Positions 145-8,439 of a DNA stretch of 36,703 nucleotides are shown one piece after another. The number at the start of each line of letters is the position of its first letter. Positions within the stretch are counted from its first letter, which is position 1. Below the pieces are notes generated by a model that searched no databases, was not told where the DNA came from, and saw nothing but the letters and a program-made list of their open reading frames with translations. Origin of the DNA: Flammeovirgaceae bacterium (GTDB taxonomy: Bacteria; Bacteroidota; Bacteroidia; Cytophagales; Cyclobacteriaceae). The DNA is taken from the NCBI GenBank assembly GCA_021298015.1, contig JAJTGY010000038.1, positions 1 to 36,703 on the forward strand. Direction: 5' to 3'. The translations under genes were made by a program, and so were the position numbers.

Positions 145-846
145 TTAGCGCGCGGGTTGGCGCTGGCGGAAGTGCTCAAACAAGCGCACATTCATCAGCA
201 ACAGGGCCATGCCATAAAAAGTATCTTCAAACGGAATGGTGCCCATGCGAATGCCCATGACCTCGTCCGCGTTATACCACACCACTTCCTCGGGTATGCC
301 TGTTCCTGTTAAGATACCGTTGACAATGAAAAACGGGATGAGAATAAACAGAAAAGCAAAATAGAACCGACCAATGTAGGTGGTTTTCCAAACCCAGCGG
401 TGCAGCGCAATCAGCACCGCACACACCACAAAAGCACTGGCGGTGTACCACCTGTCATAATTCACGGCTGCCAGCACCAGCAGGCCCACTACCAGCACTT
501 CGGAAAGGCGGTTGGCGGTAGCTGCGCTTACGCGTTCGCGTTTGCTCAGGATGTTGACGGCTTCGTAGGTGAACGCGCAGGCGTACGGAATGCAAATGAA
601 GAACAGAACTTCTTCAATGGGCAGGTTGATAAAATAGATACCCGAGAGGTAGCGCGGGTTAAAACCCCACACGCCCATGTCGGTGAACCAAATGTCCCAC
701 ACAATGAAGAAAGCCGCGGGCAGCACGATGGATGGCCACAAGGCTTTCCACTGTTGATAGAACTTATGACGGGGATGAAACGAGAATACCAACGGGAACA
801 GGATGGAAAAAAAATCCACCAGCAGGTAGGTGTATTTCTCGTTCAC
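145..846 (-). CDS. crtY: Lycopene beta-cyclase, fused CrtYcd (CarR-domain) type
   Basis: Integral membrane enzyme expected to cyclise the ends of lycopene to give beta-carotene. The 233 residues are strongly hydrophobic with about six or seven membrane segments. They form two tandem CarR-type domains: the first carries PIEE (76-79) followed by FFICIPYACAFTYE, the second carries the matching PFED (205-208) followed by TFYG. In actinobacteria these halves are separate crtYc and crtYd genes; here they form one chain, as is common in Bacteroidota. The start lies three bases after the crtZ stop, so the gene is the last one of the carotenoid operon. The family also includes cyclases with other end-ring specificity, so the beta-ring product is an inference supported by the adjacent crtZ. 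Confidence 0.88.
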   Translation of the reverse strand: MNEKYTYLLVDFFSILFPLVFSFHPRHKFYQQWKALWPSIVLPAAFFIVWDIWFTDMGVWGFNPRYLSGIYFINLPIEEVLFFICIPYACAFTYEAVNILSKRERVSAATANRLSEVLVVGLLVLAAVNYDRWYTASAFVVCAVLIALHRWVWKTTYIGRFYFAFLFILIPFFIVNGILTGTGIPEEVVWYNADEVMGIRMGTIPFEDTFYGMALLLMNVRLFEHFRQRQPAR

Positions 847-2456: not shown

Positions 2457-3788
2457 TTATTGACCTTTTAAAGCCACCGAGTAGGCGTTCAACACGCGCT
2501 CGCGCGCGGCTGCATGATCGACAATGGGCGCAGGGTAGGCAGGCGTACCCAGTTCGTGCACCCATTTTTTGATGTAGGTGAGGTCGGGATCAAATTTTTC
2601 CGTTTGCAGGGCCGGGTTAAACACACGGAAATACGGAGCGGCATCGCAACCGCTGCCGGCCGCCCACTGCCAGCCGCCATTGTTGGCCGCCAGGTCGAAG
2701 TCCAGCAACTTTTGGGCGAAGTACGCTTCGCCCCAGCGCCAGTCAATAAGCAGGTGCTTGGTGAGAAAACTGGCCACGATCATGCGCACGCGGTTATGCA
2801 TGTAGCCGGTGGCGTTGAGTTCGCGCATGCCGGCATCTACAATCGGGTAGCCCGTTCGGCCTTCGCACCAGGCGCGGAATTCCGTGGCGTTGTTGCGCCA
2901 CGCCACCTTGTCGTAGTCCGGTTTGAATGCCTTCGTCACCACCTGCGGGAAATGCCACAGGATCATGTGATAGAAATCGCGCCAGATCAATTCGTTGAGC
3001 CACACGTCATTTTTCTGACGAGCTACTTTCACGAGTTGGCGAATGCTAACCGTACCAAACCGAAGGTGCACACTCAGGCGGGTGGTGCCGTCAATGCCGG
3101 GGTAGTTGCGCTGCCGGTCGTACGCTTCAATGATGGAAGTCTTGATCACCCGTGGTGGAAAGGGCTGGCTAGTGGCTTTAAACCCGAGCGCTTCCAGCGT
3201 AGGTAGCGCCTGTGGCGGCATCTTCTTGAAATGCTGTTGAACCTTGCTGATGTCGAACGAAGTGAGTCCCTCGCCTGCGAGGCGCGCTTTCCATTTTTTG
3301 GAGTATGGCGTGAAAACCGTGTAGGGCCTGCCATCGTCTTTTACGACTTCGTCTTTTTCAAAGATCACCTGGTCTTTAAACGTGTGAAACGTGATGCCGC
3401 GCGAGTTGAGCTGTTGCTTCACGCGCTCATCGCGTTCGCGCGCATAGGGCTCGTAATCGTGGTTGGTGAATACAGCCAGCGGTTGCCAGCGGCTGAAAAA
3501 ATCGAGGGGACTACCGTGCACCACCACCAGGCTACTGCCGAGCGCCACCAGTTGTTCCTGCAGGGTTTGCAGGGCCTGGTGAATGAACTCAACCCTGCGG
3601 TCCTGTTTGTCTTCCAGGTGATCGAGTATCTCCGTGTCGAAGATGAATATCGGCACTACCGGCCGGCCTTCGCGAAGGGCGTGGTACAATCCGCAGTTGT
3701 CGGTCAGCCGCAGATCCCTTCGGAACCAAAAGACGGTGCTGTCTTCCGGGATGACGTCACTACTTTTTGTTGGACTGAAGGGTTTCAA
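2457..3788 (-). CDS. phr: Deoxyribodipyrimidine photo-lyase (class I CPD photolyase)
   Basis: Flavoprotein that uses blue light to split UV-induced pyrimidine dimers in DNA. The N-terminal alpha/beta antenna domain opens with TVFWFRRDLRLTDN. The C-terminal FAD domain shows GTTRLSVHLRFGTVS, NELIWRDFYHMILWHFP, GYPIVDAGMRELNATGYMHNR, DWRWGEAYFAQKLLDFDLAANNGGWQW and YFRVFNP, all class I hallmarks. At 443 residues it is slightly short of the usual 460-480. The only workable start is a TTG at 3786-3788, which overlaps the end of the DUF6435-like gene by 29 bases, so translation is probably coupled. Its place in a carotenoid operon under a B12-type photoreceptor fits a photo-oxidative stress regulon. 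Confidence 0.9.
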   Translation of the reverse strand: MKPFSPTKSSDVIPEDSTVFWFRRDLRLTDNCGLYHALREGRPVVPIFIFDTEILDHLEDKQDRRVEFIHQALQTLQEQLVALGSSLVVVHGSPLDFFSRWQPLAVFTNHDYEPYARERDERVKQQLNSRGITFHTFKDQVIFEKDEVVKDDGRPYTVFTPYSKKWKARLAGEGLTSFDISKVQQHFKKMPPQALPTLEALGFKATSQPFPPRVIKTSIIEAYDRQRNYPGIDGTTRLSVHLRFGTVSIRQLVKVARQKNDVWLNELIWRDFYHMILWHFPQVVTKAFKPDYDKVAWRNNATEFRAWCEGRTGYPIVDAGMRELNATGYMHNRVRMIVASFLTKHLLIDWRWGEAYFAQKLLDFDLAANNGGWQWAAGSGCDAAPYFRVFNPALQTEKFDPDLTYIKKWVHELGTPAYPAPIVDHAAARERVLNAYSVALKGQ

Positions 3789-3991: not shown

Positions 3992-4504
3992 TCAGCGCGG
4001 AGCGCGAAAGTGCGGGTGGTCAAGAATCAGGCGGAACCAGGGCGTGAACTGCTGGGGATCGGTGTGAACCTGCTGTTTCAGCGAATGGAGATCCACGAAC
4101 TTCCAGTCTTCGGCTTCGTGCTCGTTGAGTACGGGTTCACCATCAAACTGCCCGATAAACACATGGTCGATCTCGTGTTCAATCAGTTGGTTGTCCAGCG
4201 GTGCCTTGTACTGAAACTTGAACGCAAATCGCGGATTGGCTTCGATACCCATTTCCTGGCGGAGTTTTCTTCGGGCGGCTTCTTCGAGTGCTTCACCCGG
4301 CCGGGGGTGGCTGCAGCACGTGTTGGTCCACAAGCCGCTGCTGTGGTACTTGGTTTGTGCTCTTTTCTGCAGCAACATTTCACCGTGCGAGTTGAACAGC
4401 AAAACCGAAAACGCGCGATGCAGCGAACCGGTGCGGTGGGCTTCCATTTTTTCCATGACGCCCGTCACCTCGTCATGATCATTTACCAACACCACCTGCT
4501 CCAT
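3992..4504 (-). CDS. idi: Isopentenyl-diphosphate delta-isomerase, type I
   Basis: Cytoplasmic enzyme that interconverts isopentenyl and dimethylallyl diphosphate, supplying the carotenoid pathway. The 170 residues carry the type I (Nudix-fold) signatures: HRAFSVLLFN, LLQKRA, LWTNTCCSHPRPGE with the catalytic Cys in C-S-H-P (residue 64), EEAARRKLRQEMG, and EHE (109-111) with the acidic residues that bind the metal and protonate substrate. The start lies two bases after the crtB stop, so the two are probably translated together. No GGPP synthase (crtE) gene is in the window; that enzyme must be encoded elsewhere. Confidence 0.92.
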   Translation of the reverse strand: MEQVVLVNDHDEVTGVMEKMEAHRTGSLHRAFSVLLFNSHGEMLLQKRAQTKYHSSGLWTNTCCSHPRPGEALEEAARRKLRQEMGIEANPRFAFKFQYKAPLDNQLIEHEIDHVFIGQFDGEPVLNEHEAEDWKFVDLHSLKQQVHTDPQQFTPWFRLILDHPHFRAPR

Positions 4505-4506
4505 CT

Positions 4507-5346
4507 TCAGATTCGGTTGAGTTGATGTTTGACGTACGAGTAGGCGAGCAGCCGCATTTTTTGGCGGTTGCGAATGCGCACCCGCTCGTTCAAAATGAGA
4601 TCGCTGGACGAATTGATAATCTTGTTGAACAGCGCTACATAGTACACGTACGCTACGTAAACGCCAAAGCGCACGGAGCGCGGCAATAGCTTGATGCCTT
4701 CGAGGGCATGGTCAAAATCAGCCCGTATGTCGGCCTCAATTTGCTTTTTACCGTCTTCGGTTAGTGCATCGAGTTGCAGATTGGGAAAGTAAACGCGCCC
4801 CATCTGGTAATCGGCTTTCAGGTCGCGAAGGAAATTGACTTTCTGAAACGCTGAGCCGAGACTCATGGCATGGGGTTTCAGCTTTTGGTATTGTTCATCG
4901 CTTCCGTTGCAAAACACGCGCAGGCACATGAGGCCCACTACCTCGGCCGAACCCAGGATATAGTCCTTCATACCTTGCTGATCGTATGTTTTGCGGGTGA
5001 GGTCCCACTCCATGCTGCGCAGAAAGCAATCGATCAGTTCGCGATCGATCCGGAAATCATTGACCGTTCGTTGAAAGCTGTGGAGTATCGGGTTGAGGCT
5101 GATTTTTTCGTCAATGGCGCGGTAGGTGTCTTGCTTGAAGCGCTCGAGCAGTTCTTGTTTGTTGTGTTCGTGAAACGTATCCACGATTTCATCGGCAAGC
5201 CGAACGAAGCCATACAACGCGTAAATGGGGTCGCGGAATTCTTTTTGCAGACACAGGATGCCCAGCGAGAACGAGGTGCTGTACGCCTTTGTGCTCAGGC
5301 GGCTGCAACGCATAGCTACTTTGTCGTATAGGGCGCGATTCGTCAT
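4507..5346 (-). CDS. crtB: Phytoene synthase
   Basis: Condenses two geranylgeranyl diphosphates head to head to form phytoene, the first committed carotenoid. The 279 residues show the two aspartate-rich motifs of the squalene/phytoene synthase family: D52-E-I-V-D56 and D175-L-K-A-D179 followed by YQMGRVYFP. The N-terminal region (YSTSFSLGILCL, YALYGFVRLADE) is also typical. The gene starts 24 bases after crtI and ends two bases before idi. Squalene synthases share the fold, but the pairing with crtI makes phytoene the likely product. Confidence 0.92.
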   Translation of the reverse strand: MTNRALYDKVAMRCSRLSTKAYSTSFSLGILCLQKEFRDPIYALYGFVRLADEIVDTFHEHNKQELLERFKQDTYRAIDEKISLNPILHSFQRTVNDFRIDRELIDCFLRSMEWDLTRKTYDQQGMKDYILGSAEVVGLMCLRVFCNGSDEQYQKLKPHAMSLGSAFQKVNFLRDLKADYQMGRVYFPNLQLDALTEDGKKQIEADIRADFDHALEGIKLLPRSVRFGVYVAYVYYVALFNKIINSSSDLILNERVRIRNRQKMRLLAYSYVKHQLNRI

Positions 5347-5370: not shown

Positions 5371-6849
5371 TTAGGCGTTTTTGTCACGTTTTTTCAGTTG
5401 AGCGGCAACCACTTGTCCCGAAATGATGCTGGGCGGCACACCGGGACCGGGCACGGTCAACTGACCTGTATAAAGCAGGTTAGGCACTTTTTTGTTGAGA
5501 ATGGAAGGTTTCAGATTGGCCGTTTGCCACAGGGTATTCGCCAGGCCGTAGGCATTTCCTTTGAAGGAATTGTAGTCGGAAATGAAGTCGGCATGAGCAT
5601 AGCTCCGCTTGAACACAATGTTATCTCGAATGGACTGGCCCATCAGTTTTTCAAAGCGATCGAGGATCATCTGAAAATATTTTTCGCGCAGCTCGGCCGA
5701 ATCAGTAAGGCCGGGCGCTACGGGAATAAGAAAGAACAGGTTTTCGCAACCTGCTGGGGCCACGGTGGGGTCCGTTACCGAAGGAGCCGAAACGTAAAAC
5801 TGCGGTGACGTAGGCCACTGGGGCTGATCATAGATTTCTTTGGCATGGCGGCCAAAGTCCTGGTCGAAATACAACGTGTGATGCAAGAGCCCGCTCACGC
5901 GTTTATTAACGCCCACGTAAAAGATCAGGCTGCTCGGTGCCATAGTTCGGTTCTGCCAGTAGTATTCGGTATATCTGCGATAGTCGGGCAGCAGCAGGTG
6001 CTGCTCCACGTGATGGTAATCCGCGCTCGCCACGATGTAGTCCAGTTCGCGCACGACTCCGTTGACCAACAGTCCTTTGGCCCGGGTGCCGTTCATGCTG
6101 ATCTGCTGCACGGAGCTGTTGTACTCAAATTTTACGCCCAGTGAACCGGCTAACTGCACCATGCCGTTGATCACCTCAAACATGCCTCCGCGCGGATACC
6201 ACGTGCCGAGCGCCATGTCCGCATAGTTCATGAGGCTATAGAGGGCCGGAGTTTTTTGTGGGGTAGCTCCGAGAAACAACACGGGGAACTCGAGTAGTTG
6301 CACCAGCCGGGGCTCTTTGAAAAATTTCCGCACATAATCCGAAATGGAGGAGAACACGTGCATTTTCAAAACACCTGACATCAACTTGGGGTCCAGAAGT
6401 TCACCCAGGCTCAGGCCGGGCTTATACACCAGTTCATTAATCCCGATTTCGTATTTGTATTTTCCTTCTTCGATGAAACGATCGAAGGCAGGTCCGCTTC
6501 CCGGTTCGAGGCGCTCAAACATCGCGCGAAGCGCAGGGAGACCTGCGGGAATATCCAGAATGTCGTTCGGACCGTAGACGATGCGATAGGAGGGATCAAG
6601 CCGCTCGAGCTGATAATAATCAGAGGGTTTTTTCCCAAAGGCCTGAAAGAACCGCTCAAACACACCGGGCATCCAGTACCAACTGGGGCCCATGTCGAAG
6701 GTGAAGCCTTGTTCGTGAAACTGGCGGGCACGCCCGCCAGGCGTGGCGTTTTTTTCGAATACGGTTACTTCATACCCATCCCGCGCCAGAAAGCACGCGG
6801 CTGACAGCCCGGAAAAACCGGAGCCAATAACGCCAACTTTTTTTGCCAT
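5371..6849 (-). CDS. crtI: Phytoene desaturase (CrtI type)
   Basis: FAD-dependent, membrane-associated desaturase that converts phytoene to lycopene. The N-terminal Rossmann motif GVIGSGFSGLSAACFLA (residues 6-22) is followed by YEVTVFEKN, GGRA and FTFDMGPSWYWMP, a near-standard CrtI opening. The C-terminal GQLTVPGPGVPPSIISG is the bacterial-type phytoene dehydrogenase signature. At 492 residues it is the family length. It begins 7 bases after the ECF sigma stop, so sigma and desaturase share a transcript. How many double bonds it introduces cannot be read from sequence; lycopene is inferred from the downstream cyclase. Confidence 0.94.
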   Translation of the reverse strand: MAKKVGVIGSGFSGLSAACFLARDGYEVTVFEKNATPGGRARQFHEQGFTFDMGPSWYWMPGVFERFFQAFGKKPSDYYQLERLDPSYRIVYGPNDILDIPAGLPALRAMFERLEPGSGPAFDRFIEEGKYKYEIGINELVYKPGLSLGELLDPKLMSGVLKMHVFSSISDYVRKFFKEPRLVQLLEFPVLFLGATPQKTPALYSLMNYADMALGTWYPRGGMFEVINGMVQLAGSLGVKFEYNSSVQQISMNGTRAKGLLVNGVVRELDYIVASADYHHVEQHLLLPDYRRYTEYYWQNRTMAPSSLIFYVGVNKRVSGLLHHTLYFDQDFGRHAKEIYDQPQWPTSPQFYVSAPSVTDPTVAPAGCENLFFLIPVAPGLTDSAELREKYFQMILDRFEKLMGQSIRDNIVFKRSYAHADFISDYNSFKGNAYGLANTLWQTANLKPSILNKKVPNLLYTGQLTVPGPGVPPSIISGQVVAAQLKKRDKNA

Positions 6850-6856
6850 ACAGGAC

Positions 6857-7369
6857 TCACTCAGAATCCCTGTAACCTACTAATCTTTTTTGGATTTCCT
6901 TCCGGGCGTGGAAGATGCGGTTTTTCACCGTGCCGATGGGAATATTGAGGTGCTGCGCAATCTCGTGGTACTTGTAGCCAGTCGTGTACATCTTGAACGG
7001 CACCAATAACTCATCCTTCACATCGTTCACGTTTCGCCACATCTCTTTGAATTCGATACTGCTTTCGGGCTTGTTAAATGTGTGGGTGTCTTCTACGTTG
7101 AGGTAATACAGTTCTTTGGTGTCATCGCGCTGGGTGCGGGCACGCTGAGCCTTGCGGTAGTTGTTGATGTAGGTGTTGCGCATTATGGTGAACAACCAGC
7201 CCTTCAGATTGGTATCCTCGCGAAATTTATCGCGGTAGGTGAGGGCCTTTAAAATCGTGTCCTGAACGAGGTCAAGGGACTCTTCACGATCGGTAGTGAA
7301 GCGTCTGGTGAACAACCGAAGCGTAGGGCGTAAGCTTGCAACCTGGTGGGTAAATTCGATGGCCGTCAT
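6857..7369 (-). CDS. ECF RNA polymerase sigma factor of the carotenoid operon
   Basis: A 170-residue sigma-70 family factor with only regions 2 and 4. Region 2 is seen in LDLVQDTILKAL and NLKGWLFTIMRNTYINNYRKA. Region 4 is seen in YHEIAQHLNIPIGTVKNRIFHARKEI, a helix-turn-helix for the -35 element. The frame is open 21 codons further upstream, but the ATG at 7369 is chosen: it begins the conserved helix (MTAIEFTHQVASLRP) and lies downstream of the exact promoter at 7403-7433. No anti-sigma gene is adjacent, unlike the CarQ-CarR pair of Myxococcus, so control is probably transcriptional through the palindromes at its promoter. It probably drives itself, the crt operon or other light-stress genes. 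Confidence 0.9.
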   Translation of the reverse strand: MTAIEFTHQVASLRPTLRLFTRRFTTDREESLDLVQDTILKALTYRDKFREDTNLKGWLFTIMRNTYINNYRKAQRARTQRDDTKELYYLNVEDTHTFNKPESSIEFKEMWRNVNDVKDELLVPFKMYTTGYKYHEIAQHLNIPIGTVKNRIFHARKEIQKRLVGYRDSE

Positions 7370-7372
7370 ATC

Positions 7373-7406
7373 TTTGTTTAACTTTTTGTCCGAAATGTTG
7401 AACAAA
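7373..7406. promoter_or_regulatory. Palindromic operator, proximal copy, over the sigma -7 box
   Basis: TTTGTTTAAC (7373-7382), 14 bases, then GTTGAACAAA (7397-7406): arms match at 9 of 10 positions. It covers the predicted transcription start and half of the -7 box, a position where a bound repressor would block polymerase. It has the same arm sequence and the same 14-base spacer as the palindrome at 7436-7469. Binding by the neighbouring MerR/B12 regulator is inference. Confidence 0.7.
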
Positions 7407-7433
7407 TGTAGCCACCGAAAATTAACCCCCAAA
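7403..7433 (-). promoter_or_regulatory. Promoter of the ECF sigma-carotenoid operon
   Basis: On the minus strand, TTTG (7430-7433), exactly 19 bases, then TACATTTG (7403-7410). This is a full match to the Bacteroidota housekeeping promoter (-33 TTTG, -7 TAnnTTTG). Transcription should start near 7397-7400 and leave a leader of about 30 bases before the sigma ATG at 7369. Confidence 0.8.
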
Positions 7434-7435
7434 AT

Positions 7436-7469
7436 AATGTTTAACTTTTTTTATTAAAAGTTAGACAAA
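7436..7469. promoter_or_regulatory. Palindromic operator, distal copy, just upstream of the -33 box
   Basis: AATGTTTAAC (7436-7445), 14 bases, then GTTAGACAAA (7460-7469). The arms match at 7 of 10 positions and share the core TGTYYAAC with the proximal copy. It begins 3 bp upstream of the -33 box and overlaps the last codons of the regulator gene. Its centre is 63 bp from that of the proximal palindrome, close to six helical turns, so one oligomeric protein could bind both on the same DNA face. The AT-rich repeat could also act as a weak terminator of the regulator gene. Confidence 0.62.
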
Positions 7470-8348
7470 CTTTAGAGATGCCAATATGTCCTTGAGCATC
7501 AATGCGTTGTGGAATACACGGAGATTGTCCGGCAGCGTCAGGGGGGCTTTTTTCACTGCGTAGCCCGAGGCCAGCACTACCGATTCGGGAAGGTCGCGGC
7601 AAATCGTGTTGAGGAAATTTTGCACCTCTGAGGCCGGGGGTACCGAGGTGAGTTGGGTGATGATGTAGCGCGGCTTATGTATGGCGCAGATGGCTTTGAG
7701 ATCTTCATACGGCACGGTTTGGCCCAAGTAGTATGTTCGAAAACCTTCTTTTTTCACCACATAGTGGAAGAAAAGCAGGCCGATTTCGTGCAATTCGGTC
7801 TCGGGCAGAAAAAGCACAATGCGCGGGTTCGTCTTGGGCGGCAGCGGCAATTGGTCAATGGCTGCTATGATCTTCTGCCGGATAAGGTGCGAAATGAAGT
7901 GCTCCTGGGCCGGGTTAATGTTGCCGGTTTGCCACAATACGCCAATCTTTTCTAAGAACGGATAGATGATTTCCAGCACCGTGCGCTCAAATCCAAAACG
8001 CTGACTCAGCTGGGTTACAATCCCCTCGAATTTTTCTTCTTCGAGATCGATCATGGCCAGAATCAGCTGGTCGATAAAGATTTCGGTATCGGCCTGGGTG
8101 CTGCTGATCTCGGCAACTTTCTGGTTCAACTCCTCCAGCGACAGGTCTACAATTTTCGAAATCTTGAAGCCATTTTGGTTCAGCAACGATACGTTGATGA
8201 TCTTCTTCAGGTCGTCATCGGAATAAAACCGGATGTTGGTGCCAGTGCGGTTGGGGCTAACGAGGTTGTGGCGTTTTTCCCAAATACGAATGGTGTGGGC
8301 TTTTATTCCCGATAGCTGTTCGAGTTCCCGAATAGAATATTTGCCCAT
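7461..8348 (-). CDS. MerR-family regulator with cobalamin-binding domain (CarH/LitR-like photoreceptor)
   Basis: A 295-residue protein with a MerR winged-helix DNA-binding domain (residues 3-70; YSIRELEQLSGIKAHTIRIWEKRH, then IRFYSDDDL), a four-helix cap domain (about 85-170) and a Rossmann-like B12-binding domain (175-295). In the CarH family, light breaks the adenosyl-cobalt bond of bound coenzyme B12 and frees the DNA. The ligand set known from Thermus CarH (Trp131, Glu141, His142, His177) is matched here by W139, E149-H150 (W-x9-EH) and H187 in E-L-H-E-I-G. So it is probably a B12-dependent photoreceptor rather than a B12-free relative. It lies directly upstream of the ECF sigma gene it probably represses. 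Confidence 0.85.
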   Translation of the reverse strand: MGKYSIRELEQLSGIKAHTIRIWEKRHNLVSPNRTGTNIRFYSDDDLKKIINVSLLNQNGFKISKIVDLSLEELNQKVAEISSTQADTEIFIDQLILAMIDLEEEKFEGIVTQLSQRFGFERTVLEIIYPFLEKIGVLWQTGNINPAQEHFISHLIRQKIIAAIDQLPLPPKTNPRIVLFLPETELHEIGLLFFHYVVKKEGFRTYYLGQTVPYEDLKAICAIHKPRYIITQLTSVPPASEVQNFLNTICRDLPESVVLASGYAVKKAPLTLPDNLRVFHNALMLKDILASLKFV

Positions 8349-8439
8349 TTTGCTGTCAAAACGGAAGTTTTACTTCCATTCATCGGAGTTACAACATCCG
8401 CCAATGTCAAATGTTTAAACAAAGTTCGTTTTTTTACAC
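8349..8439. promoter_or_regulatory. Divergent intergenic region with hairpin (8363-8377)
   Basis: These 91 bases separate the start codons of the regulator (minus) and the helicase (plus) and must hold both promoters. GGAAGT (8363-8368), TTT, ACTTCC (8372-8377) is a perfect palindrome that would fall in the 5' leader of the regulator mRNA. No exact TTTG-N19-TAnnTTTG promoter is visible on either strand. A looser repeat, GTTACAACA / TGTTTAAAC (8389-8420), resembles the operator arms but has different spacing. Confidence 0.35.

Follow-up and report, generated by a model that had tools for sequence, protein, structure and literature searches.

Paired inverted repeats before an ECF sigma factor and carotenoid gene cluster: a probable operator of CarH-type B12 photoreceptors in Bacteroidota

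Gene content of the locus and the palindrome pair

The window, by which we mean the whole stretch of 36,703 bases that was analysed, contains a carotenoid gene cluster on the minus strand. It opens with carH (7461..8348), which codes for a protein with a MerR helix-turn-helix and a B12-binding domain, and continues with an ECF sigma factor gene (6857..7369; Pfam Sigma70_r2 and Sigma70_r4_2; ATG at 7369), a crtI-type phytoene desaturase gene (5371..6849; NCBIfam CrtID), a crtB-type phytoene synthase gene (4507..5346; SQS_PSY) and genes for an isopentenyl-diphosphate isomerase of the NUDIX type (3992..4504), a DNA photolyase (2457..3788) and, further along, a lycopene cyclase (145..846). The last three were recognised by domain matches, and the photolyase and cyclase genes form part of the crt cluster. 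The ECF gene lies directly behind the candidate operator described below, crtI and crtB are presumed to be its downstream targets, and the carH product is the presumed operator-binding light receptor. Between the photolyase and lycopene cyclase genes, at about 1927-2327 on the same strand, two small adjoining frames resemble, on inspection by eye, an antitoxin and a toxin of the RelE/ParE type.

The protein encoded at 7461-8348 combines an N-terminal MerR winged helix (PF13411, E 1.6e-14) with a C-terminal cobalamin-binding module, and displays the motifs WQTGNINPAQEH (Wx9EH) and ELHEIG (ExHxxG). Its sequence matches Thermus thermophilus CarH (5c8d, E 1.6e-20), and an AlphaFold2 model built from a 46-sequence alignment (pLDDT 90.5) has as its best Foldseek match the DNA-bound form of T. 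thermophilus CarH (5c8e, E 7.3e-17). In all 89 aligned sequences the B12-motif residues W, E, H, E and H are unchanged. The glycine of ExHxxG, residue 190 of the window protein, is replaced by serine, alanine or threonine in 42 of these 89, with the axial histidine kept in all. The wing reads T-N-I-R, its N being present in all 88 sequences that have a letter there, as against G-G-H-R in Thermus CarH. The score against the NCBIfam CarH model is 98 bits, below a cut-off of 400 that represents a threshold for naming and not a mechanistic feature. From the domain and motif composition we infer that this is a CarH/LitR-type B12 photoreceptor, predicted to bind adenosylcobalamin (AdoCbl) and to undergo light-driven dissociation.

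Two palindromes of the shared form TGTYYAAC-N14-GTTRRACA lie 63 bp apart in front of the ECF gene, as both the sequence itself and a repeat finder confirm. The promoter-proximal copy (7373..7406, core 7375-7404) consists of TGTTTAAC at 7375-7382 and GTTGAACA at 7397-7404, with longer arms at 7373-7382 and 7397-7406. The distal copy (7438..7467) consists of TGTTTAAC at 7438-7445 and GTTAGACA at 7460-7467, and the end of the carH reading frame (7461) falls inside it. Between and beneath them on the minus strand runs a Bacteroidota-type promoter, TTG-N19-TACATTTG (7403..7432), with the -33 TTG at 7432-7430 and the -7 box at 7410-7403. This TTG/-7 consensus is general to Bacteroidota. For flavobacterial RpoD promoters the elements are quoted as TTG and TANNTTTG (PMC3587595). 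The proximal palindrome overlaps the -7 box and the position expected for the start, and the distal one sits just upstream of the -33 box. The first-pass annotation had described matched palindromes bracketing a promoter at these places, with 14 bases between the arms, and this description holds, as does the placement of the proximal copy over the -7 box; the start site that it was also said to cover is an assumed position only, and the string proposed for searches in relatives, TGTYYAAC-N18-GTTRRACA, has the wrong spacer and should read N14.

With up to three mismatches allowed, the joint pattern matches only these two places in the 36,703 bases and nowhere in 100 dinucleotide shuffles; the half-site TGTYYAAC taken singly is common enough (7 copies in the window against 4.9 expected), and what is rare is its paired arrangement. 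A zero-mismatch scan of the whole genome for TGTYYAAC-N14-GTTRRACA returned the two sites of the window and no others, and at up to three mismatches the genome has little or no excess (244 against 218 in a backwards control). No convincing further CarH site was found in the window's own genome, where one match to a looser pattern sits inside an open reading frame. When the region was shuffled and searched for dyads without recourse to the motif, some 9/10 dyad appeared in 289 of 1500 shuffles, which does not alone single the region out. Two 9/10 dyads of the same gap arose in 1 of 1500 shuffles; the real region has no same-gap pair, its 9/10 dyads comprising a single one with a 14-base spacer, at 7373, and, within the distal palindrome, three nested ones whose spacers measure 6, 8 and 10. 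The case for the palindromes rests on their conservation.

Conservation of the palindromes

CarH was searched for in 116 genomes, namely the window's own and its relatives, of which 62 belong to the home genus, and the region before the ECF gene was compared at 45 home-genus loci. The first-pass annotation had named absence from close relatives beforehand as an observation that would tell against an operator, and the comparison did not bear such an absence out. Among these loci a proximal site is present in all 45, as an N14 site (at least 12/16) in 44 and as an N15 site in the remaining one (L013), and a distal site (at least 12/16) is present in 38, at -63 (26 loci), -64 (9) or -62 (3) from the proximal one. 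The left letters TGT..A are nearly invariant (44, 44, 45 and 45 of 45), the right letters T..ACA (T25, A28, C29 and A30) are found in 45 of 45 each, and the letters between them vary; the rows were picked with the motif, which favours the absolute counts but does not build in the difference between constant and variable letters. In 7 of the 45 loci the full distal palindrome is unrecognisable, and hence two sites are not always needed. Covariation between the arms is weak, the values for positions 4-27 and 5-26 being reached by 37 and 31 of 2000 permutations. At several of the loci L013-L038 the gap between the ECF gene and crtI holds, by eye, an inverted repeat with a run of T behind it, in the manner of an attenuator or terminator. 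Neither a CarH nor an ECF match was found in 17 of the 62 home-genus genomes (e.g. G001, G002, G005, G013), and 15 of these 17 are also without crtI; the pigment-light module seems to have been lost as a whole in these genomes, some of which are incomplete.

The comparison further includes 80 named GTDB loci, among them Chryseolinea serpens, C. lacunae, Fulvivirga imtechensis, Roseivirga, Vicingaceae and many Bacteroidales. The cultured C. lacunae strain Jin1 (L117) carries both palindromes, though somewhat weaker in form. From 169 carH loci we left out 44 without an ECF or crtI match behind carH and 7 duplicates, which gave 118 unique loci; they share ancestry, and the counts are of non-independent events. 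In 100 of the 118 the ECF or crtI start has an N14 site of at least 15/16 no more than 200 bp away, against 0 of 118 in a reversed control and 1 in a carH-internal control. A scan of spacers 0-44 with each arm at 7/8 or better gives N14 in 106 of the 118 loci, N15 in 12 and at most 9 elsewhere, with 2 at spacer 14 in the reversed control. At a looser 14/16 and N13-15 a site is found in 112 of the 118 (51/56 of the named GTDB loci and 61/62 of the others), the other 6 having none within reach. Exact sites number 104 against 15 in the control across the 88 CarH-positive genomes and 7 against 6 across the 28 CarH-negative ones, the latter being a small negative control because these genomes mostly lack crtI (absent in 16 of 20 examined). 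Two CarH-less genomes, G016 and G074, possess crtI with no ECF match and no palindrome within 1.5 kb and 0.75 kb upstream, and in a third, G049, the locus is interrupted by a contig end. Taken together, these comparisons indicate that the palindromes are a conserved putative operator across many Bacteroidota orders.

The palindrome also accompanies the ECF gene where carH lies elsewhere. We ran a whole-genome search with the exact motif on 22 genomes, chosen for having exact sites without an ECF-linked carH locus or as checks, and in 15 of them a match lies directly upstream of the orthologous ECF gene with carH not adjoining. Thirteen further ECF genes away from carH were located by protein and fetched without the motif, and 12 of these 13 have a site of at least 14/16 (N14 or N15) within 300 bp; inclusion of the 15 motif-found genes raises this to 27 of 28, against 1 of 28 in the reversed control. 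One of the 15 motif-found loci, that of G101, comes from a genome without a CarH match, and in G067, also among the 28, carH is about 10 kb off on the same contig. Across the 116 genomes CarH is found in 88 and the ECF factor in 86, with 84 genomes having both, 4 CarH only, 2 ECF only and 26 neither (Fisher p 1.7e-19, a value that ignores ancestry). Both G069 and G101 have the ECF gene and the palindrome with no CarH match, in genomes that are 83-84% complete (G069 83%). In the CarH-only genomes carH stands directly before crtI, with a site between the two that scores 16/16 in L091 and L098 and 14/16 in L099; in L096, likewise from a CarH-only genome, a 16/16 site precedes carH.

Autoregulation of carH was considered as a further role and rejected: a site of at least 14/16 occurs in 24 of 156 unique carH upstream regions (reversed 4), and in the home genus only at L019 and L053. 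The window's TGTTTAAACA near 8413 is found in just 2 of 166 upstream regions, those of the window and of its 97% relative L012, and was likewise set aside.

Half-site geometry and the proposed operator

Characterised CarH operators consist of tandem 11-bp direct repeats of the form nAnnTnnACAn (PMC8156234, PMC9304148). The invariant half-site recovered here, TnnACA, is the published CarH half-site, yet it is inverted, with its copies 22 bp apart start-to-start, that is, at every second 11-bp step. The inverted pair of TGTnnA with TnnACA at offset 24 is found at 105 of 118 loci (reversed 4). Direct repeats at 11 bp are not prominent: same-strand TnnACA copies occur at 11 bp in 13 of the 118 loci, at 10 bp in 11 and at 12 bp in 13 (reversed 7, 1 and 4).

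Two sites within 170 bp are present in 79 of 146 regions and in none of the reversed ones. In the home clade, which for the spacing counts takes in the non-duplicate loci among L107-L121 as well as the 45 from the home genus, the palindromes are 62-64.5 bp apart in 43 of the 44 loci with two sites, whereas those of other families are spaced by 42-45 bp (23/35), 53 bp (2), 64 bp (1) or are scattered (9). The earlier suggestion that a 63-bp spacing would let a regulator clamp the promoter from one face is therefore plausible, although what the loci, which share ancestry, display is a preferred spacing and not a 63-bp distance common to all. In the families with a 44-bp spacing all four half-sites follow one another at regular 22-bp steps, with the orientation switching at each, and the result of a helical phase test was driven by this single spacing class of about 44 bp. 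A TTG stands 17-21 bp before TAnnTTTG in 76 of the 105 loci with such a box near the site. The G of the box falls at palindrome position 2, 12 or 23 in 52, 19 and 14 of 104 box-site pairs, registers about one helical turn apart that are weak evidence of phasing, since positions 2 and 23 are tied by the symmetry of the palindrome.

The conservation of the palindromes, the identity of their half-site with that of CarH and their presence at ECF genes that do not adjoin carH argue strongly, on comparative grounds, for an operator of the neighbouring MerR-B12 regulator, as the first-pass annotation had suggested, and underlie our reading of it as one for AdoCbl-CarH in the dark. We consider it likely that the palindrome pair serves the ECF-crt operon as its operator, at which we infer that the adjacently encoded CarH binds to repress in the dark and to release in the light. 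CarH loaded with adenosylcobalamin would oligomerise in the dark and place one dimer on each palindrome, where its two DNA-binding domains would read the facing TnnACA half-sites across 22 bp, or about two helical turns. One dimer would then cover the -7 box and start and the other would sit behind the -33 box, so that RNA polymerase would be shut out, and the conserved spacing would let the bound dimers contact each other as parts of one tetramer or of two. The half-sites match in number the four DNA-binding domains that a CarH tetramer has, with either a bridging tetramer or two cooperating dimers or tetramers being conceivable. Light would cleave the adenosyl group from B12, CarH would fall apart, and the ECF sigma factor and crt genes would be made, the sigma factor presumably relaying to crt and other genes and thereby extending the response. 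Light release through the destruction of AdoCbl has been shown for other CarH proteins (PMC8156234, PMC9304148).

CarH might instead recognise half-sites of one orientation, as direct repeats with a pitch of about 21-22 bp, in the manner of T. thermophilus, where a dimer in head-to-tail arrangement touches the first and third of the three tandem 11-bp repeats (PMC9304148). Same-strand TnnACA copies at 21 bp are indeed found in 48 of 118 loci (reversed 8), a pattern that arises because TGTTTAACA is nearly palindromic, i.e. self-complementary. The left-arm letters that this would require (C in column 8 and A in column 9) occur in just 23 and 20 of the 45 home loci, whereas the letters of the inverted form (TGT and A6) occur in 44-45 of the 45, alongside the offset-24 inverted pair at 105 of 118 loci (4 when reversed), and we regard direct-repeat recognition as unlikely. 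A different regulator that accompanies the CarH-ECF module might bind in place of CarH, in view of an operator that stays with the ECF gene and not with carH, and of CarH binding that is presumed. In our estimate this is very unlikely: carH is the adjoining regulator and the half-site is that of CarH. Moreover, among the seven loci with crtI but no ECF match behind carH, six (L091, L098, L099, L135, L169, L171) keep a site of at least 14/16 before crtI, and the seventh (L096) has its site before carH.

The overlap of the distal palindrome with the 3' end of carH could point to a role in RNA, with the distal copy as a carH terminator and the proximal one as a 5'-leader hairpin. This is scarcely credible, and we rejected it: in the home loci the carH stop wanders between -51 and -171 from the ECF start while the distal site stays at about -95, 62-64 from the proximal one; the proximal palindrome spans the presumed start site, which would leave one arm outside the RNA; and the sites persist at ECF genes away from carH.

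Comparison with known systems

Classical MerR dimers bind operators in which the dyad is centred within the promoter spacer. The operator proposed here for CarH shares with these a winged-helix MerR domain and dyad symmetry, but its dyads lie on the -7 box and expected start and upstream of the -33 box, with half-sites about two turns apart. In the LitR-LitS system of Streptomyces a B12-MerR regulator controls an ECF sigma factor that turns on carotenoid genes; the present locus is alike in these three components and differs in phylum and operator. The CarH operators of Thermus thermophilus, Bacillus megaterium and myxobacteria resemble it in the TnnACA sequence, in having several half-sites, in overlapping the promoter and in serving carotenoid genes, and differ from it in that the half-sites here are inverted, 22 bp apart and grouped in two separate palindromes. 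The CarA/CarH operator of M. xanthus carB is alike in its two inverted-repeat elements, the form in which it was first described, one lying upstream of and one overlapping the -35 region, and both being bound by two CarA dimers (PMC9304148, PMC8156234). That operator spans about 55 bp, was later parsed as 11-bp repeats and has inverted repeats that are degenerate in many relatives, whereas the present 30-bp dyads are kept across a phylum.

The open-access literature yielded neither a CarH operator from Bacteroidota nor a case of rhodopsin under CarH control, in agreement with the first-pass remark that no operator of such form was known for a Bacteroidota CarH-type protein. Chryseobacterium lacus is reported to make carotenoids in the light, in an account that describes it as without car/lit genes (PMC7064467); a Chryseobacterium-labelled MAG (L171) has carH-crtI with palindrome sites. 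In Nonlabens spongiae the crt cluster is reported to begin with a gene for a MerR regulator (PMC11855829). The CarH system as such is known, and what appears to be new is the inverted arrangement of its operator, together with a candidate rhodopsin regulon. The long-pitch inverted repeats lead to a structural prediction, a symmetric dimer on each palindrome, and such operators could serve as light switches in Bacteroidota.

Rhodopsin genes and a possible wider regulon

The motif-only genome search also returned sites away from ECF and crt genes, before genes for rhodopsin (two genomes), photolyase, fasciclin-domain proteins (two), PTPS, DUF4397 and others, and the motif alone appears to find much of its own regulon. 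The regulation of flavobacterial proteorhodopsin is called an open question in PMC3587595. Of 341 genomes from the order, 112 encode a PF01036 rhodopsin, and from these we took 70 loci, the 30 best scoring and 40 hand-picked from the list; 2 that could not be aligned were dropped, leaving 68 (the rhodopsin loci examined, all whole-genome loci and with a class-wide draw included, are L191, L211 and L247-L346). A site of at least 14/16 (N14 or N15) lies within 300 bp upstream of the rhodopsin gene in 35 of the 68, one of which (L270) repeats the discovery case L211, against 1 of 68 in the reversed control. The positives are concentrated among pump-like rhodopsins, defined as at least 55% identical to a discovery rhodopsin (34/53), with 1 of 15 among the others. 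A free scan of spacers at the pump-like genes gives prominent values at 14 (24/53) and 15 (6) and no peak in the reversed control. The class-wide draw gave 15 positives in 30 (reversed 2/30). Pump-like rhodopsin genes in CarH-positive genomes are without a site in 18 of 52 cases, and the loci from CarH-less genomes are negative in 4 of 4, only one of these (L290) being pump-like. The sites before rhodopsin genes mostly do not lie over a TAnnTTTG box, the box offset of 2 being found in only 4 cases.

We find it reasonably probable that a single B12-light operator with inverted half-sites runs a phylum-wide Bacteroidota regulon, comprising the ECF-carotenoid operon and, directly, proton-pump rhodopsins, and in places photolyase and fasciclin genes. 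If so, a B12 photoreceptor would decide when rhodopsin phototrophy is switched on. The rhodopsin gene of the window's own organism (G000 C62, L277) has no site of at least 14/16 within 300 bp, and for this reason the rhodopsin regulon is not claimed for that organism. The sites at histidine kinase, NIF3, DUF4397 and PTPS genes may be due to chance. Exact palindromes stand upstream of fasciclin (L210, L213), photolyase (L228), PTPS (L199) and DUF4397 (L187) genes in CarH-positive genomes, and these are possible further members of the regulon.
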